From Candidatus Abyssobacteria bacterium SURF_5 (GTDB taxonomy: Bacteria > Abyssobacteria > SURF-5): a stretch of DNA of 36,522 bases. The position numbers and the translations under genes are program-made. The notes below the pieces were generated by a model. That model did no database searches, had not been told where the DNA came from, and was given only the letters and a program-made list of their open reading frames with translations. Each line of letters begins with the position of its first letter. The stretch's first letter is position 1. This document shows positions 10,415 to 33,111 of this stretch, piece after piece. The stretch is from contig QZKU01000013.1 of the NCBI GenBank assembly GCA_003598085.1, positions 1 to 36,522 of the forward strand, read 5' to 3'.

Positions 10415-10692
10415 ATGAATTCCTCAGCGCCGGCTGGTTCCGCTCCGCAAGCTCAGACGTTCAGATTGAGCGTGGGGATGTTCGCTTACGGTTTTTGAGA
10501 TGAAAAAAGCGATGAATTGCCAAAACGGGGTCAGATTTGATATCCTATTTTTCAATATCCTTATAAATATTATAATGCCGAAAAAGTTATCCGATCGATT
10601 ATTTGTTTTCCATAATCGTAAGTGAGGCTGTCTTTATGGCTGTATTTGCCAGTTTCCCCTAGATCACTGTGTTCAGAGCGAGACCAGTCCCC
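10415..10692. other. Divergent intergenic region upstream of signalling cassette
   Basis: No gene is seen. An AT-rich stretch at 10536-10620 contains TATAAT at 10571-10576, with only weak -35 candidates (TTGATA at 10537, TTTTCA near 10549), so a plus-strand promoter for the vWA gene is plausible but not firm. The phrase CGGGGTCAGATTTGAT (10526-10541) resembles text I associate with flanks of REP-associated tyrosine transposases, but no transposase is present. Confidence 0.4.
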
Positions 10693-13320
10693 ATGCGGAT
10701 TCAACTTGTTTCTGTTCGCCTTCCGCCTCTGGAGTTTATTGGAACTCTCCTTGTTCTGATATCAGCCGCTATTCAGGCGCCGAAATCCGCATTTGCCGAG
10801 AAAACGGAGAATCCGGCAGGGGGGACGGCTGTCGTTTATCTCATCGATAATTCCACAAGCATGGTCTGGATCAATGAAGACGTGAAGGCGATCCTGAAGA
10901 ACGTCATCAAGGAGAGCACGTCCGGCGATAGCATTTCAATTGTTTTCTTTGGCGAGAAAGCATCCACCTTAGCCAGCTATAAATCCATTGACGAGAATAA
11001 AAAGGAAATCTTGTGCAGGATTATCGATACGGCTTCAGCAACATCATTATACACCTGTTTTTCTCCCGCGATAAAAAAAGGTGTGGACCTGCTTCATGGG
11101 TACTCCAGAGGCGGGAAGGCTGAAAAATATGTTCTTCTCTTTGTGACCGACGGTAAGGAACATCCGCCGCCCGATTATGTGGAGGAGTGCACGCTTGAGA
11201 ATGCGCTCAGACAATATCCTGATTTTCTTCCCGGAAAAGAGTGGAATCTGTACTATCTGGCGCTGAGGGAGCAGGTCGACTCCGAATTGCTCTCTCTCGT
11301 AAAGAAGTATGACGGCGAATTCTTCAACGCAGGCGAACTAAGTCAGATACTTAATGTTAGTGAGGAAAAAATAGTCGAGAGCATCATTGAGGATCCTCAC
11401 CAATGGGCTGCACTCGATACATTCGTCAGCGACCGCTTCGGTGAAGTAGAGGTAAAAAAGGCAGGAGAGCATAACTGGGTTGCGATCAATCAAGCTCGCT
11501 ATAAATTGCTTGCCGGCGATGAGATTTCCGTTAAGAAAGGCGCGAAGGCCGTCGTTACCATTGGTTCGATTGCGCGTATCGGATTGGGCGAAGAAACTAC
11601 CATAGGATTGAAAGAGGCGGAATCACTCCCTCTGAAGAAGAAGATGAACGTCCGGGTCGAACTGCAAAATGGGACTGTTTTGAACTCCATTCAGAAACCG
11701 CCGGATGTATCGACACGATATGAAGTGCTCACTCCTATAGCATTAACGGGAACACGGGGAACAGATTTCAGGGTCAGCTATCGGGGCGAAATTCAGGAGG
11801 AGGTTGTTTCCGTCTTCTCCGGAAGTGTGGAGATATCGGCCGTGGACAAGGCTTCGTTCGAAAAGAAGGTTATCATAGAAGCGGGGAATCAATCCGTGAT
11901 CGCGGCCGGCAATCCGCCGACTCCGCCGTTCCCCATTCCTCAGGTCATACTGGAGGAATGGAACAAATGGAAGAAGGCGTTGCTCCTTAAGACTCCGCTT
12001 CACGAAATTCATTTTCATCCCGTGACTGTGAGACCATTGATTAACCAAATCGTGTTCGGTCCAATCAAGCCCAACCAGAAATACACTGCGGAAATACCGT
12101 TACGATATAGCGAAAAATATCGTGGACAACATAAGATCTCTGTTCTCGCGCAAATGCCGTTGCCTCCGGGAGTCGAACTGTCGACCGATGTGGAGGACGA
12201 TAATGAAGATAAATTGCTGAAGAAGGTGCACCTTCTCCTTTATTGCCCTCCATTCCTCAGACATACGGGTCGTGAAACGTACGCCGGCAATATCAATTTG
12301 AGCTGTAACAGCCCGGATATAAAATTTACCGTGAAAAGCATCCCGGTGCAGGTGCTGCAATCCCGTCCAAATTTTGCGCAACGCTTAAGGGATTTGAAGC
12401 CGGCCATCAGGAACGCCGTTATCGTCCTTTCATCGCTGTTGCTTCTTCTCGTCATTTTTGTGATGTGGAGGGTCAGATCGAAAGTTCGCAGCTTATATCG
12501 GCTGCTGCTGAGCAATCTGAAATTGGTGCTGATGAAGACCAAGTTGACCCGTCTCTACCGGGGGAGACCGGTCGGGCATTTTATGCTGCGTTCATCGGCG
12601 TCGGATCAGCCTCAAAAAAAATACGATCTGGCAAAAATCTCGCGCGAGAGCGACTCCCTGATTCTCAATATCGGGAGCGATCTCGCCAACCCCTTCCCTT
12701 TCACTCACTCCGCCGACCAAGCGATTCACTGCCATATCTATGCGGGCAGAAAAAGGAACCCAACGAAAGTTTTTATTGGGCTCGCTCCCGGCGGTAAAGT
12801 TGTCGTCAACGGAGAAACGCTAAAGCAGGGCCGACAGCTCAAGCACAAAGACATGATCCAAGTCGGGAAACTTCTGTTCGAATTCATAGATATCCAGACT
12901 CAACGTCAGGTGAGAGTCCACATGAACGACGGCGTCCAGTACACAGGAATGCTGGAATACTGGGACCTCGCCAGCCTTGTCTTTTTCATGACGTGCGTAC
13001 GCGAGAACAAAGAACAGTTCCTCACATTGGATTTTCGGGACGTCCTGTATGTGGAATTTTTCATTGATGAAAGCGATCCGGAAAAGCATATCCTGCCGCG
13101 TCCCCTGCGGAGATCGCGAAAATTGATCCGGAAAGATATCACGGTTTTTCTGTCCAACAGAAAAAAGCTGAGTGGGCTCGTGGACCGGAAATACCGGTAT
13201 AAACAGGGCGCCGCCCTGTTCCTCTTGCCGCTTGATAAAAGCAATATCCAATACATTTATGTTCCCGGGAGCAGCATTAAATCGGTCGTAATCGTCGATG
13301 CGCAAGCAAAGAAAAAGTAG
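10693..13320 (+). CDS. vWA-FecR-like-TM-FHA-like signalling protein
   Basis: A large protein (about 875 residues) of unassigned function. After a signal peptide (MRIQLVSVRL..., hydrophobic core, AFA-E cleavage near residue 35) comes a von Willebrand A domain (about 44-227) with MIDAS residues D52, S54, S56 in DNSTS and D153 in VTDGK. A FecR-like beta domain spans about 247-404 (TPIALTGTRGTDFRV, VFSGSVEI). A second beta-rich region precedes one transmembrane helix (about 575-592). The cytoplasmic part has an FHA-like domain (about 657-734, NG at 706-707 kept, the usual Arg replaced by Ser), then two similar beta modules (737-795 and 812-872). The ATG at 10693 is chosen for its signal peptide; GTG at 10669 is an alternative, and neither has a good ribosome site. 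It overlaps the next gene by 23 nt. Confidence 0.8.
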   Translation: MRIQLVSVRLPPLEFIGTLLVLISAAIQAPKSAFAEKTENPAGGTAVVYLIDNSTSMVWINEDVKAILKNVIKESTSGDSISIVFFGEKASTLASYKSIDENKKEILCRIIDTASATSLYTCFSPAIKKGVDLLHGYSRGGKAEKYVLLFVTDGKEHPPPDYVEECTLENALRQYPDFLPGKEWNLYYLALREQVDSELLSLVKKYDGEFFNAGELSQILNVSEEKIVESIIEDPHQWAALDTFVSDRFGEVEVKKAGEHNWVAINQARYKLLAGDEISVKKGAKAVVTIGSIARIGLGEETTIGLKEAESLPLKKKMNVRVELQNGTVLNSIQKPPDVSTRYEVLTPIALTGTRGTDFRVSYRGEIQEEVVSVFSGSVEISAVDKASFEKKVIIEAGNQSVIAAGNPPTPPFPIPQVILEEWNKWKKALLLKTPLHEIHFHPVTVRPLINQIVFGPIKPNQKYTAEIPLRYSEKYRGQHKISVLAQMPLPPGVELSTDVEDDNEDKLLKKVHLLLYCPPFLRHTGRETYAGNINLSCNSPDIKFTVKSIPVQVLQSRPNFAQRLRDLKPAIRNAVIVLSSLLLLLVIFVMWRVRSKVRSLYRLLLSNLKLVLMKTKLTRLYRGRPVGHFMLRSSASDQPQKKYDLAKISRESDSLILNIGSDLANPFPFTHSADQAIHCHIYAGRKRNPTKVFIGLAPGGKVVVNGETLKQGRQLKHKDMIQVGKLLFEFIDIQTQRQVRVHMNDGVQYTGMLEYWDLASLVFFMTCVRENKEQFLTLDFRDVLYVEFFIDESDPEKHILPRPLRRSRKLIRKDITVFLSNRKKLSGLVDRKYRYKQGAALFLLPLDKSNIQYIYVPGSSIKSVVIVDAQAKKK

Positions 13321-16180
13321 TTTTCCTGTTCAAGTGAAACCGGTTCCTGTGCTTGGACCAGACCAACACACCTGCGTCGCTGCGACGAGGAAGACACTTT
13401 TCCATGCAGGAACGGCAATAGCACTCTGCTGCTGGCTAATCGCTGTCGCGGCCGGATTGCTCGCTCGGCCTCTCCTGCAGCGTTTCGAAAATATGCTTGT
13501 CGATGTACGGATGCGCTTGCCGCATCGCGTTATGCCTGACAACCGTCTTGTGTTTGTGGACATCGACGATAAAAGCATTGAACTGCTGGGCAGATGGCCA
13601 TGGCCGCGTTCGCGCCTCGCGGAAGTGATTCGAATTCTTGATGGGGCCGGGCCATGGGGAATATTCGTCGATGTTCTTTTTGCAGAAGAGACTTCACCGG
13701 AGAATGACCTCGCGCTTGTGCGCGTTTTCGAGGAAGCGGAGCGGATTTTTCTCGGTGTCGCAGTCGAATTCAAAGATCATGATGCGGCCGGAACAACGGC
13801 GGGTTCAAATTTGTCGCTCCTGAAAAGTCTCTCGTACGAGACCGCGGCAAAAGGAAATTCCCGGTTCCCGAAGGCCGGGCGCGCGGTGATTCCCTTGTCT
13901 GCGTTTGTGGTGCCTGCAAAAGGCATTGGGCATATCAGTTTTGTGCCGGACGCGGATGGTGTCGCGCGGCACCTGCCCCTTTTTGTTGATGTGGATGGAA
14001 GGTTTTTCCCATCGATAGATATCGAATTGGCCCGGTCTCTTCTGGATGTGGAAAAAGAAGATATCGAGGTATTCCCGGGAGATTCCGTTTTCCTGCGGAA
14101 TGCGCGATTGCCGGGCAAGGAGGAAGCGGAGGATTTGCAGATTCCCATCGATTCCCGTGGCCGGATCTTGATTAATTACGCCGGATGCTGGGGCAGAATG
14201 TTCCCTCATTATTCGCTTCAAGGGATTCTCACTGATCTGCTCGATGAGGACGAAAACGTTAATCGGCAGGCGGAAAACCTGCTATCGGAGAAACTGATAA
14301 TCCTGTCGGTGTCTTTTTCCGGGGCTTCAGATATGGGCCCGACTCCGCTGGAGCCGCTCGTGCGGCTTTCCGAGATTCACGGGCATGTAATCAGCTCAAT
14401 TCTTCATCGGCAGTTTCTTCGAAAAATTCCGACTCCGGCAACTCTGGCAGTTGCATTTCTTGTGTGCGCCGGCATCGGTGCCTGCTGTTTCAGGTTCAGG
14501 GTCTTTGCCTTTGCTATTGCCGGCGCCGCCGCCATCCTTCTGTGGCTGCTCCTGAGTTTCGCTTTCTTCTCCATGGTTGGATGGATAACGGATATCGTCT
14601 GGCCTTGCTCCGTCATCGTGCTCGCTTTTGGCGGTTGCACCGGTTATACGCATCTGAAAGCTGAACAGGAACGTTCCTCCCTTCGGAGGGCATTTTCCCG
14701 ATACGTTTCGCCGGAATTGCTCGCCCAAATTGTCGAGAACCCCGATAAGTTGAAACTGGGCGGAGAACGCGTAAACCTGACGGTGCTTGTTCTTGTTCTC
14801 GAAAAATTCGAGCGAGTGACGGAAAACGCCGAAGCGGAGGAGATAATCGAATTCCTGAGCGCCACATATGAGAAAGCCTGCGAAATCATTTTCGCAAATG
14901 ATGGCGCAATCGATACGTTCACCAAAGACGGATTGATTGCCTTCTTTGGCGCTCCTCTCGAACGGGAAGATCATGCCATAGCAGCGGTGAGAGCCGCTGT
15001 CTCGATCAAGCAAGCGCTTCTTGAGTTGGGTGCGAAGCGATTCGCGAGGTATCCCGTCGGCGCGAAAATGGCTCTGAATAGAGGATTTGCCACAGTCGGG
15101 AATATCGGCTCCTCAAGGAGAATGAATTATACGGTCATCGGGAAAAATGTTGATTTGGGCATACATTTGGCGCACGCCGCGAGAGAGGGACAAATCCTGA
15201 TCCCCCGGAAGACGTTTGAAGGAATGGAGTCGTTCTTTGACGTCGAAGAAGTTGGAGAAATGCGCGTGGGGCCCTATCCGAAGCCGGTCCATATCTTCAA
15301 TGTCAGAGGTATGATTGGCGAGAGTTTCCTCATCCGTAGCGAAGCTGTTTATCCCGCAGCCACGATCGGAACCAAAAAATTTCTCGGTCCGTATATTCTG
15401 ATGGAAAAGATCGGGGCCGGAAATATGGGAACCGTTTACCGCGGGTACGATGAAGTCCTTGAGCGACAGGTGGCGATTAAAGTGTTTCCGCATCTGGAGA
15501 AAGACGCCATTGCTGCAGTCGCCAGAGAAGCGAAGGCGCTGGCGAAACTAAGCCATCCGAACGTGGTGCAGGTATATTCCGCAGGCGAGGAAGACGACGT
15601 CGCTTATCTTGTGATGGAATTTGTCGATGGGCAAACTGTACGCGAACTGCTGAATACGGAAGGTCCCTTGCCAGTGGCAGAAGCACTTGACATCCTGATC
15701 CAGGCGTGTCGCGGCTTGAATGCGGCTCAGAAAGAGGACATCATTCATCGAGACATAAAGCCGGCAAACCTGCTGATAAACAATCACGGCATGGTAAAAA
15801 TAGCCGATTTCGGACTCGCGCGGCTGGCGAATCGGGGCGAATCGACCCACACGGTTGCCGGAACCTTCCAATATATGTCTCCCGAGCAGGCGCGTGGCGC
15901 CGCACTTGATTGCCGGGCCGACATCTATTCTCTTGGAATCACCTTTTTTCATTTGCTCGCGGGTGAGCCGCCATTTAAAGCTGATACCATCGCCGGATTG
16001 GCCTGGCACCATTCAAACACGGAAATGCCGGATGAGCCGTTGCGGAAGAAAGAAGTTCCCGAAGCAGTTATCACTTTGATTCGAAGGATGACCGCGAAAC
16101 AGACCGAGGAAAGACATCGCGACTACCTGGAACTGCTGAAAGAACTGGATCGAGTGGAAGCCTCCCTGCCGGCCGGATGA
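13298..16180 (+). CDS. CHASE2 sensor - degenerate cyclase - Ser/Thr kinase fusion
   Basis: A 960-residue membrane receptor. One N-terminal helix (35-55), an extracytoplasmic CHASE2 domain (about 60-375, with VFVDIDDKSIELLGRWPWPR and GIFVDVLFAE) and three helices (about 380-450) are followed by a class III cyclase-like domain (465-670) and a protein kinase (697-953). The kinase is complete: GAGNMG loop 706-711, VAIK K728, E744, HRDIKPAN with D819, DFG D837, SPEQ 861-864. The cyclase is not: the first metal Asp is V500, the transition-state Asn and Arg are D619 and H623, and only D544 of the metal pair remains. It probably works as a pseudo-cyclase regulatory or dimerisation module. The start overlaps the vWA gene by 23 nt; no clear Shine-Dalgarno is visible. 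Confidence 0.9.
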   Translation: MRKQRKSSFPVQVKPVPVLGPDQHTCVAATRKTLFHAGTAIALCCWLIAVAAGLLARPLLQRFENMLVDVRMRLPHRVMPDNRLVFVDIDDKSIELLGRWPWPRSRLAEVIRILDGAGPWGIFVDVLFAEETSPENDLALVRVFEEAERIFLGVAVEFKDHDAAGTTAGSNLSLLKSLSYETAAKGNSRFPKAGRAVIPLSAFVVPAKGIGHISFVPDADGVARHLPLFVDVDGRFFPSIDIELARSLLDVEKEDIEVFPGDSVFLRNARLPGKEEAEDLQIPIDSRGRILINYAGCWGRMFPHYSLQGILTDLLDEDENVNRQAENLLSEKLIILSVSFSGASDMGPTPLEPLVRLSEIHGHVISSILHRQFLRKIPTPATLAVAFLVCAGIGACCFRFRVFAFAIAGAAAILLWLLLSFAFFSMVGWITDIVWPCSVIVLAFGGCTGYTHLKAEQERSSLRRAFSRYVSPELLAQIVENPDKLKLGGERVNLTVLVLVLEKFERVTENAEAEEIIEFLSATYEKACEIIFANDGAIDTFTKDGLIAFFGAPLEREDHAIAAVRAAVSIKQALLELGAKRFARYPVGAKMALNRGFATVGNIGSSRRMNYTVIGKNVDLGIHLAHAAREGQILIPRKTFEGMESFFDVEEVGEMRVGPYPKPVHIFNVRGMIGESFLIRSEAVYPAATIGTKKFLGPYILMEKIGAGNMGTVYRGYDEVLERQVAIKVFPHLEKDAIAAVAREAKALAKLSHPNVVQVYSAGEEDDVAYLVMEFVDGQTVRELLNTEGPLPVAEALDILIQACRGLNAAQKEDIIHRDIKPANLLINNHGMVKIADFGLARLANRGESTHTVAGTFQYMSPEQARGAALDCRADIYSLGITFFHLLAGEPPFKADTIAGLAWHHSNTEMPDEPLRKKEVPEAVITLIRRMTAKQTEERHRDYLELLKELDRVEASLPAG

Positions 16181-16211
16181 TCGGCTTCACGATCCAAAGG
16201 AGATCAAGGCC

Positions 16212-17840
16212 ATGGCGTTTCTCACCATTTTGAAGCCGTCGGGATTCGCAGTTCCCATAGAGTTGAAGCAGAAAATCATTTCGATTGGGACTGCGACAGA
16301 AAATAGTGTCCATATTGATCTGCCGACAATTGCTCCGGTGCACGCTTCAATTATCTTCGACGGCAATAATTACCTGTTGATCGACCACTCCAGCGAGTAC
16401 GGTACGTTCGTCGACGGCCTCCAGGTGGACAGGAAATTCCTGCAACCGGGAAACGTAATCAAGCTCGGGCAGGATGCCAAAATGCTCTTTTCGCTCCATT
16501 CAGAGCCCAACGAATTGAATGGACGGCAGGTAATGATTTCGTCCGAGCGGGACGAGAATCATATTGGAGAAGACATTCAAAAAACCATATCGTTGGATGA
16601 ATCCTACTTCAGGGAGCGGCGAAGCGGAACAGTGCCTCAGGCGGAACAGCAGAAAAAGCACCTGACAGCCATCTACCAGGTGCATCAGAGCATAATGGAA
16701 ATCCTTGACGTGGATGAGCTGACGCGGAAAGTGCTGGATCTTGTCTTTGAAATCCTTCCTGCCGATCGCGCGGCCATTATCTTTTGCGACGAGGGGTTGG
16801 CATCCGTGTACCCCGTCGCCTTTAAGGAACGGGGGCAGTCGGGCGAGCCGGCTTCAGTCAGCATCAGCCAGACCATTATTAACAGAACGATCGGACAAAC
16901 GACCGCAGTCCTGGCCAAGGACACGTATGTTGATTCGCGGTTCAGAGACGTCACCAGCATCAAGAGGAAACGCATTCGGTCGGTCATGTGTGTTCCCTTG
17001 AATACCAAAAACAACTTGTTTGGCGCCCTCTATGTCGATGCGCTGAACGTTCCCGGCGGATTCTCGGAAGAGGATTTGCGCCTGCTGATCGCGGTCGGAG
17101 GCGCGCTTGCGAATTCAATCGAGAATTCCAGGTTGATAGCGCGGATCAAGGAAGAGCAACGGAAGCTGACAACGCTCGAACGATATCTGCCGTCTCTCGT
17201 AGTGGACCACCTGTTCCGCCAGCAGGATTCCGACCGGCTTGGGGGAAAATATGCTTCGGTTGCCGTCCTTTTTGCGGATATTCGCGGATTCACGCCGTTT
17301 GCCGAACAATTCCCGCCAGCCGATGTCGTCGCCATCCTCAACGAATATTTCACGGCAATGTCGGAAGTCGTCTTCGAGTTCAAAGGCACCCTCGGCGAAT
17401 ATATTGGCGATGAGATCATGGCGTATTTCGGAGCGCCAATTGAATGCGAGGATCATGCGGCGCAAGCTATAGCGGTGGCGCAAGAGATGATGAAGACCAT
17501 TGGTTCGCTGAAGGAGATCTGGAAGCGGAGAGGTTCTCCCACATTCGACATCGGAATAGGAATTGCGACGGGTGCGGCGGTCGCCGGCAACATTGGCTCG
17601 CCAAAGCAGATGAAATATACGGTGATTGGCAGCACCGTCAACCTGGCAAGCCGCTTATGCGCACGCGCCGAGTCCGGCCGGATTCTTATGTGCCCGGAAA
17701 CTTACAGAATCGCAGGAAAGCTTGCACGCGCTCATTTCCTGGAAGAAACGAAGTTAAAGGGAATCTCCAAACCGGTGCAGGTGTATGAGATCGACTGCAG
17801 GAACTTAAAGCCCGCCTCCGATCCTCCCGGCCCTCGGTAG
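16212..17840 (+). CDS. FHA-GAF-class III nucleotide cyclase
   Basis: A 542-residue soluble signalling enzyme. It has an N-terminal FHA-like domain (about 1-98), a GAF domain (about 160-308: ILPADRAAIIF, SVMCVPLNTKNNLFGALYVD), a linking helix, and a class III adenylate/guanylate cyclase domain (345-527). Metal residues D356 (LFADIRGFT) and D400 (YIGDEIMAYFG) and transition-state residues N477 and R481 (VNLASRL) are all present, so catalysis is likely. The base-specificity position usually Lys in adenylate cyclases is Glu396, with Thr470 as the second position, so ATP versus GTP cannot be assigned. The FHA pocket is atypical: Arg is T27, Ser is A41, Asn is D68. The Shine-Dalgarno AAAGGAGA lies just upstream; the gap to the kinase gene is 31 nt, same operon. 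Confidence 0.92.
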   Translation: MAFLTILKPSGFAVPIELKQKIISIGTATENSVHIDLPTIAPVHASIIFDGNNYLLIDHSSEYGTFVDGLQVDRKFLQPGNVIKLGQDAKMLFSLHSEPNELNGRQVMISSERDENHIGEDIQKTISLDESYFRERRSGTVPQAEQQKKHLTAIYQVHQSIMEILDVDELTRKVLDLVFEILPADRAAIIFCDEGLASVYPVAFKERGQSGEPASVSISQTIINRTIGQTTAVLAKDTYVDSRFRDVTSIKRKRIRSVMCVPLNTKNNLFGALYVDALNVPGGFSEEDLRLLIAVGGALANSIENSRLIARIKEEQRKLTTLERYLPSLVVDHLFRQQDSDRLGGKYASVAVLFADIRGFTPFAEQFPPADVVAILNEYFTAMSEVVFEFKGTLGEYIGDEIMAYFGAPIECEDHAAQAIAVAQEMMKTIGSLKEIWKRRGSPTFDIGIGIATGAAVAGNIGSPKQMKYTVIGSTVNLASRLCARAESGRILMCPETYRIAGKLARAHFLEETKLKGISKPVQVYEIDCRNLKPASDPPGPR

Positions 17841-18444: not shown

Positions 18445-18473
18445 TTGACTGGCGATTTTGCTTTCAGTATAAT
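18445..18473 (+). promoter_or_regulatory. Sigma-70 promoter for PlsC-type acyltransferase
   Basis: TTGACT (18445-18450) and TATAAT (18468-18473) are separated by exactly 17 nt, one mismatch from full consensus. The predicted start at about 18480 is only about 12 nt from the ATG at 18492, so the Shine-Dalgarno GAGGAG (18478-18483) would sit at the very 5' end of the message. Confidence 0.75.
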
Positions 18474-24212: not shown

Positions 24213-25607
24213 ATGAAACCAAAAACTCTCAAAGAATTAAGAAAATCGCGATACCGTATTCTCTCGGTTCGCGAGGAAATGCGGAAGAATCTTATTGCCA
24301 AATTGAAACGCGGCGAGCCGCTCTTTTCGGATATTGTCGGTTATGAATATACCGTGATTCCGCAGTTGGAGAATGCAATACTGTCGGGGCACGACATGAT
24401 CTTTCTCGGCGAACGAGGCCAGGCAAAGTCGCGACTGATCCGGAATCTGATCCACCTTCTTGACGAGGAGATACCCATTGTCAAAGGGTGCGAGATCAAT
24501 GATCATCCGTTCGCGCCCATCTGCACGTCTTGCCGGAAGAAAGCGAGAGAACTCGGGGATGCCTTGGAGATAGAATGGATCGGCCGCGACCGCCGCTATG
24601 CCGAAAAACTCGCCACTCCGGATGTGACTGTCGCCGATCTGATCGGCGAGGTCGACCCGATCAAGGTGGCCGAAGGCAAGTATCTCTCGGATGAAGAGGT
24701 GATACATTTCGGGCTGATTCCGCGGGTGAACCGGGGTATTTTCTCAGTTAATGAGCTGCCCGATCTCGCCGAAAAGGTGCAGGTGGGCCTCTTTAATATC
24801 ATGCAGGAGCGCGACGTCCAGATCAAGGGATTCCTCGTTCGACTGAACCTGGATGTGCTGATCGTCGCGAGCGCGAATCCGGAAGACTACACCAACCGCG
24901 GCCGCATCATCACTCCGCTCAAGGATCGCTATTCTTCGCAGATCCGCACTCATTATCCATCCAATCAGGACGTCGAGGCGCGCATTGTCGAGCAGGAACG
25001 CCGGCGCTTCGATGAGAACGGCTATGTGGTCGTGTTGCCGGAGTTCATGCGGGACATCCTCACGCAGATCACGTTTCTGGCGCGGCAGAACCCGGACGTC
25101 AACCAGCATTCCGGCGTGAGCGTGCGCATGTCGATCAGCAACACTGAGTGTCTCCTCAGCAACGCCGAAAAGCGCGCCATCAGGCTGGGCGAGAAAGAGG
25201 CGGTCCCGAGGATAAGCGACCTGCCCTCGATTGTCTCGTCAACCAGCGGCAAGCTGGAGCTGGAATCGTTCTCTTTCGACGGCAAGGAAGACAGACTTGT
25301 CAATCACCTTATCAGCGCGGCAATCAAGGAGACGTTCGACAAGTACTTCAATATAAGTTCACTCGGCGAAGTCGTCAAAGCGTTTCATGATGGCGCGACG
25401 GCGGTGGTATCGGACTCGCTCGAGTCGGAACAGTACCTGCAGCAATTTTCGGAGATTGAGGCGCTTGAATCCGCTGCCCGGTCGTTGTGCGGGGATTGCA
25501 CGCCGGCAATGTACGCCTCGGCCGCCGAATTCATTCTCGAAGGATTGTACCTCCATCAGCAAATCCATAAGGAGTCAGTGGGCGGAAAACTTCGGTATAA
25601 AGGGTAA
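24213..25607 (+). CDS. MoxR/ChlI-type AAA+ ATPase
   Basis: A 464-residue AAA+ protein of the magnesium-chelatase-I/MoxR/RavA group, usually a chaperone that remodels partners with a vWA subunit. Walker A is GERGQAKSR (66-74, K72), Walker B GIFSVNELPDL (175-185), sensor 1 VASANPEDYT (218-226), and an arginine-bearing ITPLKDRYSSQIRTHYP block follows. A Cys/His-rich insertion sits between Walker A and B (C93, H98, C104, C107), suggesting zinc binding, which is not standard in MoxR proteins. The next gene, 4 nt downstream, is a vWA protein, so the two probably form a complex. No metal-chelatase H subunit or methanol dehydrogenase gene is close, so the client is unknown. Confidence 0.88.
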   Translation: MKPKTLKELRKSRYRILSVREEMRKNLIAKLKRGEPLFSDIVGYEYTVIPQLENAILSGHDMIFLGERGQAKSRLIRNLIHLLDEEIPIVKGCEINDHPFAPICTSCRKKARELGDALEIEWIGRDRRYAEKLATPDVTVADLIGEVDPIKVAEGKYLSDEEVIHFGLIPRVNRGIFSVNELPDLAEKVQVGLFNIMQERDVQIKGFLVRLNLDVLIVASANPEDYTNRGRIITPLKDRYSSQIRTHYPSNQDVEARIVEQERRRFDENGYVVVLPEFMRDILTQITFLARQNPDVNQHSGVSVRMSISNTECLLSNAEKRAIRLGEKEAVPRISDLPSIVSSTSGKLELESFSFDGKEDRLVNHLISAAIKETFDKYFNISSLGEVVKAFHDGATAVVSDSLESEQYLQQFSEIEALESAARSLCGDCTPAMYASAAEFILEGLYLHQQIHKESVGGKLRYKG

Positions 25608-25611
25608 TCCG

Positions 25612-27378
25612 ATGAACACTTATAAGTACTCCGCCCCTGCCCAGCCTTATCAAGCCCTTCCGGACGCCGACACCATCATGGACGAGCTTGCAGAACATGC
25701 GCTCGAGGAAAATTCCCTGGAGCAGGCGATGCTCAAACTTTCTAAGAAAGGAGTCAAGGAGAAATACGGCGACTCCGTCGACGGACTGGATCGTCTGGCA
25801 GCGGACTCACATTCGCTGCGCCGCCGCCTTCAGTCGGAATATACCTTCGAGCCATTGATACAGCAGTTGCGCAAACAGATACAGGCGCTTGTGCGGGAGG
25901 AACTTCGGGCCTTGAACGAGAGGAGCCATTGCGCCGAACAGGACCATAATTCGAAAATGGAGGATTTCCTGCACCAGTCGGCCGATCTTGCCGCAAAGCT
26001 GGAGGAGATGCGTTCCGGAGAGCGCCGCCCCTCCGATCAGGCCATCGCGCGGATGGAGAATTCTTATGAAGACCTGTATCTGAAGAAACACCAGATCGAG
26101 AACGAATGGCAGGAGATGCGCCGCCAGGAGGCGCAGCGACTGGCTTCGCTCCAGCGCGTGCCGCACTCGCCGGGGCAGGCGCTGCAGAAATTGAAGAAGT
26201 ACGAGGCCGCCGATGCGGCGGTCGGGCAGGCTCTGGCGCAGCTCACCGCGCTCGCGGACGAAATTGCCGCAATCGAGCGGGCTCAGGCGCAGCCCGGTTT
26301 CTCCGGCCACAAAGGGGTCGGGCTCAAAGAAGCCGTCAAAATCGTCGAGCGCGTTCTCAGGATTGAGCGGCTGGAAAACCGTCTGCGCAAGGGCTTGCTC
26401 TCGCCGGCTGACGAGGAATTGCTGGCGGAGATGCTCGGGGGCGGCGCGATGTCGAATGTCAATTTCCTCAAGCAGGTGCAGGACAAGCTCCTGCAGGCGG
26501 GCTACCTCGAGTTCAGCAGCGATGAAATCAAGCTGAGCCCGCGCGCGGTCAGGCGCATCGGGCGAAAGGCGCTCTCGGATGTTTTCTCGAACCTGCGGAC
26601 GGGAACCCTTGGCGCCCATGAGGTCGCCCGAAAAGGAGCCGGCCAGCCGAATACGAACGAAACCAAAACATACGGCTTCGGCGACGCCTTCAACATCCAT
26701 CTCGGAAAAACGCTCATGAACGCGCTCAAGCGCGACGCGAGCCGCATTCCAATCAGCATCCGGCCCGGCGACTTCGAGGTTTTTGACGAGTCGCGAACCG
26801 TCGAGTGCTCGAACGTGCTGATGCTCGACCTCAGCTATACCATGGCGCAGAACAACAAGCTGCAGGCGGCGAAGAAGGTGGTCTTCGCCCTCGACAGCCT
26901 GATCCGCTCGCGGTACCCGAACGATACGCTCCACATCGTCGGCTTCGCCACGTACGCGCGCGAGCTGTCCACTCAGGACCTCCCGTGCGTGGGACTTTCG
27001 CTCGGACACCCGTTCACCAATATTCAGGACGGCCTGCAACTGGCCGAGAAATTGATCTCGCGAGAACATGCAAAAAACCGCCAGATCATCCTCATCACCG
27101 ACGGCGAGCCGACTGCCTTCTGCCGGGACGGTGACCTCTTTGTCGATTATCCGCCCACCCCCGAGATTTTCGCCGAAACCATGAGGGAAGTCGTCCGCCT
27201 CACCCGCAAGGGAATCACCATCAATATCTTCATGCTCGATGAGAAACCGGCGCTGGTGAGTTTCGTCGAGCAGATGATGCGCGTCAACAAAGGACGCGCA
27301 TTCTTGTCCTCCCCTCAGCGGCTCGGCGAATATCTGCTGCTGGATTTCGTTTCCCGCCGGAAAAGGCTGATCACGTAG
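25612..27378 (+). CDS. vWA domain protein, partner of the MoxR ATPase
   Basis: A 588-residue cytoplasmic protein. The N-terminal two-thirds are helical and highly charged, with coiled-coil stretches (about 60-180 and 190-260). The C-terminal vWA domain (about 395-575) has MIDAS residues D406, S408, T410 (DLSYT, Thr in place of the second Ser), T469 (FTNIQDG) and D497 (ITDGEP). The architecture recalls BchD/ViaA-type partners of AAA+ motors, with vWA at the C-terminus. The real start is the ATG at 25612 just after the ATPase stop. The frame is open back to 25387, but that part runs inside the ATPase gene and encodes no homologous sequence. Confidence 0.85.
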   Translation: MNTYKYSAPAQPYQALPDADTIMDELAEHALEENSLEQAMLKLSKKGVKEKYGDSVDGLDRLAADSHSLRRRLQSEYTFEPLIQQLRKQIQALVREELRALNERSHCAEQDHNSKMEDFLHQSADLAAKLEEMRSGERRPSDQAIARMENSYEDLYLKKHQIENEWQEMRRQEAQRLASLQRVPHSPGQALQKLKKYEAADAAVGQALAQLTALADEIAAIERAQAQPGFSGHKGVGLKEAVKIVERVLRIERLENRLRKGLLSPADEELLAEMLGGGAMSNVNFLKQVQDKLLQAGYLEFSSDEIKLSPRAVRRIGRKALSDVFSNLRTGTLGAHEVARKGAGQPNTNETKTYGFGDAFNIHLGKTLMNALKRDASRIPISIRPGDFEVFDESRTVECSNVLMLDLSYTMAQNNKLQAAKKVVFALDSLIRSRYPNDTLHIVGFATYARELSTQDLPCVGLSLGHPFTNIQDGLQLAEKLISREHAKNRQIILITDGEPTAFCRDGDLFVDYPPTPEIFAETMREVVRLTRKGITINIFMLDEKPALVSFVEQMMRVNKGRAFLSSPQRLGEYLLLDFVSRRKRLIT

Positions 27379-30109: not shown

Positions 30110-30135
30110 CGGCGTGCTTTTGCATACGATATAAT
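30106..30135 (+). promoter_or_regulatory. Sigma-70 promoter candidate upstream of tup operon
   Basis: TTGACG (30106-30111) and TATAAT (30130-30135) with an 18-nt spacer; the -35 overlaps the stop codon of the preceding gene. Transcription from about 30142 would produce a leader of roughly 285 nt before tupA. Confidence 0.55.
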
Positions 30136-30425
30136 AAGCGCAGTTTCTTCGATTCAACAGGCCTGCGGTGGAGAAATGCCATGGCGGTTGAACGGCAGGT
30201 GCAGAGGGAAACCTCTGCGCCACCCATCCTCGGAAAGGAGAAACGGGACAAACGCCAGTTCCACGAGGTATGGGACTGGCTGATTTTATTTTGGATCCCG
30301 GATCAAGAGCCGGGACGGACTTTAGATCCCGGATCGGAGTCCGGGACACGCTTTGGATTGAAGATTAACCGAACACGAATTACGAACTCGAACGAATACA
30401 CGAATAGAAAGTGTAGTGTTGGCGT
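30136..30425 (+). promoter_or_regulatory. Long structured leader of the tungstate operon
   Basis: No convincing gene lies here, though a frame from the ATG at 30181 stays open to 30429. A clear hairpin has stem GCAGAGG (30201-30207), a GAAA tetraloop (30208-30211) and CCTCTGC (30212-30218). A smaller one pairs TCCT (30227-30230) with AGGA (30236-30239). Position before tungstate transport and molybdopterin genes suggests a molybdenum/tungsten cofactor riboswitch, but I cannot align it to that motif with confidence. The 3' part consists of dispersed repeats. Confidence 0.35.
30294..30347 (+). repeat. Two tandem 23-nt GATCCCGGATC repeats
   Basis: Units at 30294-30316 and 30325-30347 (period 31) both begin GATCCCGGATC and end CCGGGAC, differing only in the central five bases. 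Each is itself an inverted repeat (CCCGG/CCGGG) able to fold. They resemble a dispersed repeat known from several bacterial lineages and lie in the leader upstream of tupA. Confidence 0.65.
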
Positions 30426-31349
30426 TTGATCAGCAGCGAAATTGGAACGAGTAAGACTGTAAGCCGAGAAAACGAGAGGTCACTCTCCTTCTTCTCAAGA
30501 AAGAGATTATCGAGTTATTTTCTCTTTCTTCTCTGTGTCTTGGTGTCTTTGTGGTTAGGTCTTCTTCCCGCTCTTGCCCAAGATCGTATTCGGCTTGCCA
30601 CTACCACCAGCACCGACAATTCCGGACTGCTGGCGGTGCTCCTGCCGCCGTTCGAGAAGAAATACAATATGAAAGTTGACGTGATCGCCGTCGGCACCGG
30701 CAAGGCGCTGAAGCTTGGTGAAAACGGAGACGTTGATGCCGTGCTCGTTCATTCGCGCGAGGCGGAAGATGAATTTATTGAAAAGGGGTTCGGCGTGAAT
30801 CGCCGCGACGTTATGTACAACGATTTCGTCATTGTGGGGCCCCCGTCTGACCCGGCCGGAGTCGCGAAAAGCCCTTCCGCCGCCGAAGCACTTTGCGCGA
30901 TTTCAAAGGCGAAGGCGCCGTTTATTTCGCGGGGAGACGACTCCGGCACCCATAAGAAAGAGAAGGAGCTGTGGAAAGCGGCAGCAGTCGAGCCGGGGGG
31001 GCAGTGGTATCTGGAAGCCGGCCAGGGAATGGGCGCCATTCTCACGATGGCAGACGAAAAAAACGGGTATACCCTGACCGATCGCGGCACGTTGCTTGCG
31101 TTTTCCGATAAGCTCGAACTCGAGGTTCTTTACGAGGACGATCCCGACCTGTTCAATCCGTATGGCATCATGGCCGTCAATCCGGCGCTTCATGCCCACA
31201 CAAATTATGTGGGCGCCATGCTGCTGATCGGATGGATGACGTCACCGGAAGGGCAGAATATCATCGGCTCGTTCAAGATGAACAATCAGCTACTGTTTTT
31301 CCCGCTTGCCGTGCCGGCATCGGGTCGGAACCGAGAATGGTCTTTCTGA
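30426..31349 (+). CDS. tupA: Tungstate ABC transporter substrate-binding protein
   Basis: Periplasmic tungstate receptor that delivers the oxyanion to TupBC. TupA features are LATTTSTDNSGLLAVLLPPFEKKY just after the export signal, the VGTGKALKLGENGDVDAVLVHSR block, FISRGDDSGTHKKE and the YTLTDRGTLLAF block. The signal sequence is hydrophobic (FLFLLCVLVSLWLGLLPALAQ) and is encoded partly by a dispersed repeat (30531-30558). The start is uncertain: TTG at 30426 gives 307 residues with a long N-terminal region and no Shine-Dalgarno, and no better in-frame start codon is visible before the hydrophobic core. Tungstate rather than molybdate is inferred from the TTTSTDNSG type, not measured. Confidence 0.9.
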   Translation: MISSEIGTSKTVSRENERSLSFFSRKRLSSYFLFLLCVLVSLWLGLLPALAQDRIRLATTTSTDNSGLLAVLLPPFEKKYNMKVDVIAVGTGKALKLGENGDVDAVLVHSREAEDEFIEKGFGVNRRDVMYNDFVIVGPPSDPAGVAKSPSAAEALCAISKAKAPFISRGDDSGTHKKEKELWKAAAVEPGGQWYLEAGQGMGAILTMADEKNGYTLTDRGTLLAFSDKLELEVLYEDDPDLFNPYGIMAVNPALHAHTNYVGAMLLIGWMTSPEGQNIIGSFKMNNQLLFFPLAVPASGRNREWSF

Positions 31350-31373
31350 ATGTTCACTCTTACTGGATAAGAT

Positions 31374-32069
31374 ATGGATTATCTGATTGACGCCTTGCTC
31401 AAGGCGTGCCGGCTGATTATCACGCTTGACCGCGAGCTCGCCGTCGTCGTTTGGACCTCGCTGAAAGTCTCGCTCACCGCCGTTGTGCTCGCCAGCCTCG
31501 TGGGAGTGCCGCTCGGCTTCATCATCGGCGCCGGCCATTTTCGCGGAAAGCATCAGCTGGAAATTGCGCTCAACACCTCGATGGCCATGCCGACGGTGGT
31601 TGTCGGCCTAATCGTATACTCCTTTGTTTCTCGAAGGGGGCCGTTGGGGGTGTATGGGCTCCTCTTTACGCCGGCCGCAATGATTATTGGGCAATTCATT
31701 CTCGCGGCGCCGATTATCACTGCGCTTTCTCTTTCGGCGACGAAGGCCGTTGATATGCGGGTGAGCGAAACCGCGCGCACGCTGGGTGCGACGGCGATTC
31801 AATCGGCGGTCGCGACGATCAGCGAAGCGAGATATGCGGTCCTCGTTGCGGTCGTGGCTGGTTTTGGCCGCGTGATCGCTGAGGTCGGCTCCGCAATGAT
31901 TCTCGGCGGCAACATTGAGGGCTATACCCGAACCATGACGACCGCGATCGCGCTCGAGACGGGGAAAGGTGAGTTCTCTCTTGCGATCGCGCTCGGGCTG
32001 ATTCTGATCCTGATCGCACTGACGGTAAACGCGGTGGTCCAAAGTTTTCGCCTCAAAAGAGCGTATTAG
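31374..32069 (+). CDS. tupB: Tungstate ABC transporter permease
   Basis: A 231-residue inner-membrane permease with five to six helices. The cytoplasmic EAA-type loop that contacts the ATPase is seen as SETARTLGATAIQSAVATISEAR. The segment VIAEVGSAMILGGNIEGYTRTMTTAIALET is typical of TupB/WtpB permeases. It begins 24 nt after tupA and ends 7 nt before tupC, in the canonical order. Confidence 0.94.
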   Translation: MDYLIDALLKACRLIITLDRELAVVVWTSLKVSLTAVVLASLVGVPLGFIIGAGHFRGKHQLEIALNTSMAMPTVVVGLIVYSFVSRRGPLGVYGLLFTPAAMIIGQFILAAPIITALSLSATKAVDMRVSETARTLGATAIQSAVATISEARYAVLVAVVAGFGRVIAEVGSAMILGGNIEGYTRTMTTAIALETGKGEFSLAIALGLILILIALTVNAVVQSFRLKRAY

Positions 32070-32076
32070 AAACAGC

Positions 32077-33111
32077 ATGACGCGACAAATCATATACCAA
32101 CTTGAAAATGTAACCAGATCGTACGGAGGAACGATCGCCCTGGCGATTCCGGAGCTTCGCTTTTATCAAGGAGAAACGTGCGCGCTTGTCGGGCCGAACG
32201 GCTCCGGCAAGACGACGCTGCTCAGACTCCTCGCTCTCATCGACAGGCCCACGAGCGGCCGGCTCCTCTTTGATTCGGTTCCGTTGTGGAATGGGTCGGG
32301 CCGGCACATTCAGTTCTCGCGGCGGATCACAATGGTTTCTAATCCGCCATACCTTTTCAACCGATCCGTTGCCTATAACATCGGTTACGGCTTGCGAGTG
32401 AGGGGAGCGTCCCGAAAACATGTCCGGGAGAAAATTCAGGAAGTTCTGAATCTGGCGGGGCTCGAAGGCTTTGAGAGGCGCGAGGCGCGAAAACTCTCAA
32501 GCGGTGAGCAACAGCGCGTGGCTCTTGGGCGCGCGCTTGCGCTCGAGCCGGATGTACTCCTGCTCGATGAGCCGACGGCCAGCATCGACCGCGAGCATAC
32601 CAAGGAAATCGAATCGTTCATAGAAAAAGTTGGCGCGCAGAAAAGCATGACGATCGTTTTCTCAACCCATAATCAGCATCAGGCGGACTCGCTTGCGCAG
32701 CGGGTGATTCCCCTGTATGAAGGAAGGGTGGAGGATTTTATTTACGAAAACCTGTATGCCGGCGTCATCGTTGATGATAAAGGAACGCATCGCATCACTT
32801 TGAACTCCACGACCGGATTCGAAGTGTCCGCCTCCGCGCTTGGCGTTGCTCAGGTCTCGATCGATCCCCGTGATATCATTATCTCCCGGCAGGCGCTGAA
32901 TTCGCCGGGGGCCAACTGTCTTCCCGCAAAGCTTACCGGAATGTCCATGCACGATTCCAGCGTGAAACTGCTTCTCGATGCCGGGGTCCCTCTCACCGTT
33001 ATCCTCTCGCACGAGCTGCACAGGCAGTTCGGTCCGAAGCTCGGCGAAAACCTGTATTGCATCTTTGATGCAACCGCGGTAAGGATCATCAAAAATGACA
33101 AAAACGCGTAA
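32077..33111 (+). CDS. tupC: Tungstate ABC transporter ATP-binding protein
   Basis: A 344-residue ATPase energising TupAB. Walker A is GPNGSGKT (39-46), the ABC signature LSSGEQQRVALGRAL, Walker B VLLLDEPTASID, and the H-loop histidine lies in VFSTHNQHQA. The C-terminal 110 residues resemble a TOBE-like oxyanion domain (VSIDPRDIIISRQ, LTGMSMHDSSVKLLLDAG), as in ModC/TupC, and could provide feedback inhibition. Its 3' end overlaps moaC by 17 nt. Confidence 0.93.
   Translation: MTRQIIYQLENVTRSYGGTIALAIPELRFYQGETCALVGPNGSGKTTLLRLLALIDRPTSGRLLFDSVPLWNGSGRHIQFSRRITMVSNPPYLFNRSVAYNIGYGLRVRGASRKHVREKIQEVLNLAGLEGFERREARKLSSGEQQRVALGRALALEPDVLLLDEPTASIDREHTKEIESFIEKVGAQKSMTIVFSTHNQHQADSLAQRVIPLYEGRVEDFIYENLYAGVIVDDKGTHRITLNSTTGFEVSASALGVAQVSIDPRDIIISRQALNSPGANCLPAKLTGMSMHDSSVKLLLDAGVPLTVILSHELHRQFGPKLGENLYCIFDATAVRIIKNDKNA

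Follow-up and report, generated by a model that had tools for sequence, protein, structure and literature searches.

A putative FecR/CHASE2 signalling operon with a degenerate cyclase, a Ser/Thr kinase, and a separate FHA-GAF-cyclase in Candidatus Abyssobacteria bacterium SURF_5

Operons that encode an exported FecR protein beside a CHASE2 transmembrane receptor have been described in Burkholderia and Campylobacterota. The Burkholderia BiofilmReg operon encodes a LysM-FecR protein and a CHASE2 histidine kinase, and an insertion in its response regulator gene was found in a biofilm-lacking strain (PMC5192318). In Campylobacterota, a CHASE2 adenylate cyclase and a FecR protein are encoded in one cluster (PMC9239204). 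The CHASE2 cyclases of Sinorhizobium respond to a plant protein via the outer-membrane protein NsrA (PMC13001267), which supports the idea of CHASE2 receptors that are cued by an envelope partner. CHASE2 sensors are also carried by cyanobacterial Ser/Thr kinases (alr1869, all4838), where CHASE2 is the sole added domain according to one survey, with no intervening cyclase (PMC2176072). A Ser/Thr kinase and a class III cyclase share one chain in Myxococcus PKN2 (PMC1262709), in TOMM kinase/cyclase proteins (TIGR03903), and in Trichodesmium Tery_2857 (STK, GAF, CYCc; PMC2176072).

The stretch of DNA analyzed here (36,522 nt of contig QZKU01000013.1; hereafter the window) carries three genes, A, B, and C, that draw on these modules (Table 1). 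B begins within A on the same strand, with a 23 nt overlap (13298-13320), and B and C are separated by 31 nt (16181-16211). The next gene after C encodes an acyltransferase (read from 18489); it follows after a gap of ~650 nt and has its own promoter-like match at 18445-18473. The open reading frames, overlap, gap, and domain content of the three-gene cassette in the original prediction were all confirmed, the domains with Pfam, and one module that had been overlooked, a C-terminal DUF6982 in A, was found. The vWA-FecR portion of A and the CHASE2 domain of B are predicted to face outward, and the FHA-like domain and DUF6982 of A, the pseudocyclase and kinase of B, and all of C are predicted to be cytoplasmic. 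We compared the locus with a sample of 386 genomes consisting of the window's genome (G000), its relatives G001 and G002, and 383 others, in which the window's genus is represented by a single species.

Table 1. Positions of the genes and features of the A-B-C locus within the window.
Feature	Position	Strand	Remarks
Sigma-70-like promoter match 5' of gene A, TTTTCA-16-TATAAT	10549..10576	+	Consensus match only, 10/12
Gene A (SP-vWA-FecR-Ig-like-TM-FHA-like-DUF6982, 875 aa)	10693..13320	+	Alternative GTG start at 10669
A signal peptide, residues 1-36	10693..10800	+	Cleavage-like site between AFA and E; from sequence and hydropathy
A vWA domain	10831..11154	+	MIDAS residues intact
A FecR domain	11518..11832	+	Extracytoplasmic
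A single TM helix, residues 576-594	12418..12474	+	Within long modelled helix 561-619
A degenerate FHA-like domain	12565..12888	+	pThr-binding Arg replaced by Ser662, Ser by Gln676
A DUF6982	12907..13293	+	Modelled as tandem small Sm/SH3-like barrels
Gene B (CHASE2-3TM-pseudocyclase-Ser/Thr kinase, 960 aa)	13298..16180	+	
B CHASE2 sensor domain	13442..14479	+	
B degenerate class III cyclase	14690..15313	+	V500, D544, T540, T612, D619, H623 for D, D, K, T, N, R
B PknB-type Ser/Thr kinase domain	15389..16147	+	Catalytic motifs intact
Gene C (FHA-GAF-class III cyclase, 542 aa)	16212..17840	+	Soluble
C FHA domain	16278..16469	+	pThr-binding Arg replaced by T27, Ser by A41
C GAF domain	16707..17120	+	
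C class III cyclase	17247..17786	+	D356 D400 E396 T470 N477 R481; guanylyl-cyclase-like pair E/T

Two pairings within the locus recur in unrelated genomes. FecR-CHASE2 adjacency is a minority arrangement: in 11/60 loci, all in other families, a FecR ORF and the CHASE2-cyclase ORF are no more than 1.5 kb apart, and nine of these pairs are on the same strand with gaps of at most 203 bp. Within 8 kb the count is 16/60. FecR was found beside the FHA-GAF-cyclase in 0/20 loci (Fisher p 0.057 at 1.5 kb and 0.008 at 8 kb versus the CHASE2 loci). A Ser/Thr kinase ORF adjoins the FHA-GAF-cyclase in 6/20 loci, four of them same-strand, versus 0/60 CHASE2 loci (Fisher p 1.3e-4). The CHASE2 (n = 60) and FHA-GAF-cyclase (n = 20) loci served as controls for each other and are best matches rather than random samples. 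A and B resemble the described FecR/CHASE2 operons in that A has a signal peptide and a FecR domain and the CHASE2 receptor gene starts inside A. In those operons FecR occurs with LysM or with an outer-membrane protein, and CHASE2 is joined to a histidine kinase or an active cyclase. Here, in contrast, FecR is part of a vWA-TM-FHA-DUF6982 protein, and CHASE2 is joined to a dead cyclase with a Ser/Thr kinase as the output. The original prediction had suggested that the vWA/FecR-like portion of A might sense adhesion or envelope state; compared with adhesion sensing by vWA, the FecR/CHASE2 pairing reported in Burkholderia and Campylobacterota accounts better for the link between A and B.

The complete A-B-C set is known from a single genome, which limits the weight of the finding. 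Its co-occurrence or adjacency was absent from G001, G002, and the 383 other sampled genomes. The closest A orthologue, in G001 (37% identity), keeps FecR and has no CHASE2 or kinase gene alongside. Neither G001 nor G002 has a match spanning CHASE2 to the kinase of B, or a full-length C. Among the best 2-3 candidates scored per genome, a scan that a weak fusion may escape, no B-type fusion was found in the 386 genomes at E <= 1e-72; the matches at this threshold are CHASE2-cyclases of ~640-720 aa with no kinase. A kinase fused to a CHASE2-cyclase, or within 8 kb of one, was found in 0/60 loci. Recurrent three-way adjacency, which the original prediction had named as its own test, did not emerge among the candidates scored in these genomes, and on this basis we rejected a conserved three-gene cassette.

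B has one N-terminal TM segment and three after CHASE2. Pfam detects CHASE2 (6.7e-48), a weak Guanylate_cyc match (1.7e-5), and Pkinase (3.3e-56, 191 bits). The kinase carries the Hanks-type motifs GAGNMG (706), VAIK (725), HRDIKPAN (817), and DFG (837). The CHASE2 class III cyclases possess two Asp, Lys/Thr, Asn, and Arg at the catalytic positions, and 58/66 sequences compared with the B cyclase read DDKTNR. B reads VDTTDH at the metal-1, metal-2, Lys, Thr, Asn, and Arg positions, so that residues of both half-sites are lost and the cyclase had rightly been called dead. B is like the cyanobacterial CHASE2 kinases in placing a CHASE2 sensor on a Ser/Thr kinase, and unlike them in its intervening cyclase. 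It shares a kinase-cyclase fusion with PKN2, the TOMM proteins, and Tery_2857. In PKN2 and the TOMM proteins the kinase is N-terminal and CHASE2 is absent, whereas in B the cyclase, which is degenerate, precedes the kinase. Elsewhere in the sample, long CHASE2 cyclases occur as tandem pairs at L149:1-5956, L150:2156-8736, and L152:4462-10673 (G384, G258, and G121, respectively). One cyclase in each of these pairs has lost metal-binding Asp residues (MAKTNR or MHKTNR), and they are possibly another dead/live pairing.

C has no TM segment and matches FHA (2.4e-12), GAF (3.3e-12), and Guanylate_cyc (1.6e-28). Its domain order (FHA, GAF, class III cyclase) and length are those of the FHA-GAF-cyclases, a widespread family of about 540-600 aa proteins found full length in ~25/386 genomes. 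All 20 relatives examined keep the canonical FHA residues (Gly-Arg and Ser-x-x-His) and the cyclase Lys; C has lost both. Its cyclase reads D/D/E/T/N/R, with the metal and transition-state residues kept and the ATP-specifying Lys changed to Glu, a change unique among the ~100 cyclases examined and seen in none of the other C-type or lineage cyclases compared. The earlier description of this cyclase as live must be qualified on account of the change. Class III adenylyl cyclases have K/T or K/D at the substrate positions. The Glu/Thr pair of C instead matches the guanylyl cyclase sequence pattern, in which Glu replaces Lys and C/S/T/H/A/G replaces Asp (PMC4215837). In Ma1120, a Lys-to-Glu change lowered adenylyl cyclase activity by 92% and raised guanylyl cyclase activity about fourfold at pH 7.5 (PMC4215837). 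From this pair, the preferred substrate of C is predicted to be GTP rather than ATP, and its product is possibly cGMP. The Glu/Thr pair may also point to an inactive or an ATP-using enzyme; single Lys-to-Glu mutants retain some adenylyl cyclase activity (PMC4215837). Myxococcus PKN2 has the same Glu/Thr pair, and its specificity is unsettled (PMC1262709). The G000 genome encodes eight cNMP-binding domains, which are possible receptors.

A belongs to a family of paralogues found full length only in three related genomes of the 386: G000 has eight copies, G001 nine or ten, and G002 at least four. A scan of named genomes with A gave a single match, a groundwater MAG labelled 'Candidatus Poribacteria'. 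Pfam detects VWA_2 (2.9e-8), FecR (6e-8; 33.5 bits, cut-off 24), and DUF6982 (4.3e-6) in A. The FHA domain of A alone falls below the Pfam cut-off (15.3 vs 20.7 bits); its identity is clear at the family level, as 18/22 paralogues match PF00498. Across the 22 aligned members, Pfam finds DUF6982 in all, VWA_2 in 20 (L048 is a member without vWA), and FecR in only four, one of which is the A of the window. The paralogues occur in varied contexts, e.g., beside galactokinase or beside alkaline phosphatase and a PQQ-kinase, the neighbors being named by reading their sequences. Several have the same neighbors in all three genera, so the copies are old, each with its own context. In three genera (L036:6708-12061, L042:6966-12311, and L049:6871-13295), members that combine a FecR-like match with a damaged MIDAS share a conserved context of a hydantoinase-B-like gene and galactokinase; the L049 member keeps the canonical FHA residues. 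A trio consisting of a vWA-FHA-DUF6982 protein, a Ser/Thr kinase with a TM segment and a PQQ-like propeller, and an alkaline phosphatase is present in each of the family's three genera (L039:7804-13674, L047:2860-8783, and L052:2468-8514). As a conserved system, this trio is more convincing than the A-B-C set. We rejected it as an equivalent of that set; its kinase is of another type, and it only shows a further A paralogue beside a kinase. Another vWA protein is encoded in the window at 25387-27378 (+; 663 aa, vWA 477-574) and is apparently outside the A family.

The full-length model of A is only fair (pLDDT 72, pTM 0.36), and a fold search with it returned mostly vWA proteins. The AlphaFold model of DUF6982 (pLDDT 88.5) is a pair of small barrels. 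The halves are similar to Sm/Hfq and RimP-type folds, with a probability of 1.0 across ~55 columns and E >= ~0.04, a fold assignment that is suggestive only. We found no literature on DUF6982. In many families (loci L173-L186) the domain makes up stand-alone proteins of ~135 aa or is fused to others (TPR-like in L173).

Kinases are combined with vWA and FHA modules in the archaeal Arn network (ArnA/ArnB) and in the T6SS threonine-phosphorylation pathway (PpkA/Fha1), and the FHA proteins of both read phosphothreonine. At this locus, unlike in those networks, the vWA domain is extracytoplasmic with FecR and the FHA domains are degenerate. In a canonical pThr reader, the conserved Gly is followed by Arg, and a Ser precedes the His by three residues. 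In their place A has Gly-Ser and Gln, and C has Gly-Thr and Ala. Among the 22 aligned members of the A family, Arg is kept in three, Ser in five, and both in one. Canonical phospho-reading by either FHA domain, as had been proposed for both, is unlikely because both lack the pThr-contact Arg and Ser.

The reading that we tentatively prefer, at slightly less than an even chance, is a lineage-specific elaboration of a FecR-CHASE2 envelope-sensing module in which the output has moved to a kinase and a separate cyclase. A, B, and C would form one operon for envelope sensing, with the vWA-FecR ectodomain of A as the envelope partner and CHASE2 of B as the receptor. B would make no cyclic nucleotide; its pseudocyclase may have been retained as a dimerising element through which the state of CHASE2 is transmitted to the C-terminal kinase, which appears active from its motifs. 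A may anchor a cytoplasmic platform of non-canonical FHA and tandem small barrels near this kinase. C would be the soluble output cyclase, gated by GAF and FHA, and is probably downstream of, or controlled by, the kinase of B. The FHA domain of C lacks the phospho-reading residues, and the kinase-to-C step therefore has no obvious mechanism; it might proceed by direct phosphorylation of C or phospho-independent FHA contacts, or the two might not be linked. Beyond the domain content, the residue states, the packing of the genes, and the recurrence of the two pairings, we infer physical contact, the direction of signalling, the kinase substrates, and the cyclic-nucleotide product. A fully specified version seems unlikely to us as a whole: vWA-FecR and CHASE2 would act through the pseudocyclase on the kinase, and a GAF-gated guanylyl cyclase with a phospho-independent FHA domain would produce cGMP, the whole being a converted FecR/CHASE2 cAMP module. 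If true, this kinase-to-cGMP route would be a rarity in bacteria.

A relay of the kind put forward in the original prediction, with partners phosphorylated by the kinase of B, then bound by the two FHA domains (A and C), and the C cyclase activated as a result, would fit the intact kinase motifs, the recurrence of kinase genes beside FHA-GAF-cyclase genes, and the canonical FHA domains of the relatives of C. The loss of the pThr-contact Arg and Ser from both FHA domains, and their rarity in the A family, make it decidedly unlikely. A may instead be functionally unrelated to B and C: it would be a surface protein from a set of some eight vWA-FHA-DUF6982 paralogues that is encoded upstream by chance, with B and C alone as a kinase/cyclase pair. 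A-like paralogues of the same genomes do occur in many contexts, and the closest A orthologue is unlinked to B or C; we consider this somewhat unlikely, given the 23-nt same-strand overlap with B and the presence in A of FecR, a domain that is scarce in the family and recurs beside CHASE2 elsewhere.

The two cyclase domains could also act together, with the pseudocyclase of B as a regulatory or inhibitory subunit that titrates C at the membrane. Class III cyclases act as dimers, and the B and C domains are homologous (E 4e-23) and lie in one operon. The missing residues in both half-sites of B exclude a catalytic B-C heterodimer; such a dimer has no complete active site and only inhibition would be possible. 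The nearest cyclase relatives of B are CHASE2 cyclases, not the C type, and we regard this pairing as very unlikely. A role of C as the PycC of a Pycsar-type anti-phage system is highly improbable even though the C cyclase matches PADLOC PycC models (best 2.6e-19). These matches reflect the shared class III fold. In Pycsar, a stand-alone PycC has a cNMP-gated effector encoded beside it; C has no Pycsar effector as a neighbor, and the GAF/FHA fusion and the CHASE2 kinase are foreign to Pycsar, so this candidate was rejected.

The locus is most unusual at the level of single residues: two FHA domains and one cyclase have suffered losses, and the other cyclase shows a switch. If the elaborated FecR-CHASE2 module is the right reading, a second-messenger receptor would be becoming a kinase receptor, with its cyclase as a transmission part and catalysis in a separate, re-specified enzyme. 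The locus would then be a test case for pThr-independent FHA domains and for the unexplained FecR/CHASE2 partnership, and would suggest residue-by-residue checks of CHASE2 'cyclase' annotations. The transmembrane kinase-to-cyclic-nucleotide pathway of the original prediction survives as one transmembrane signalling operon whose pairwise links recur, and loses its FHA phospho-reading. Its statement that no such system had been described applies, as far as we searched, to the exact composition; the modules and pairings are known.

Elsewhere in the window, a molybdenum/tungsten (Moco) riboswitch is found at 30135-30256 (+; 54.6 bits, gathering 36). It lies upstream of a run of genes for a solute-binding protein, an unassigned protein, and an ABC ATPase (30426-33111), which fits a tungstate or molybdate transporter.
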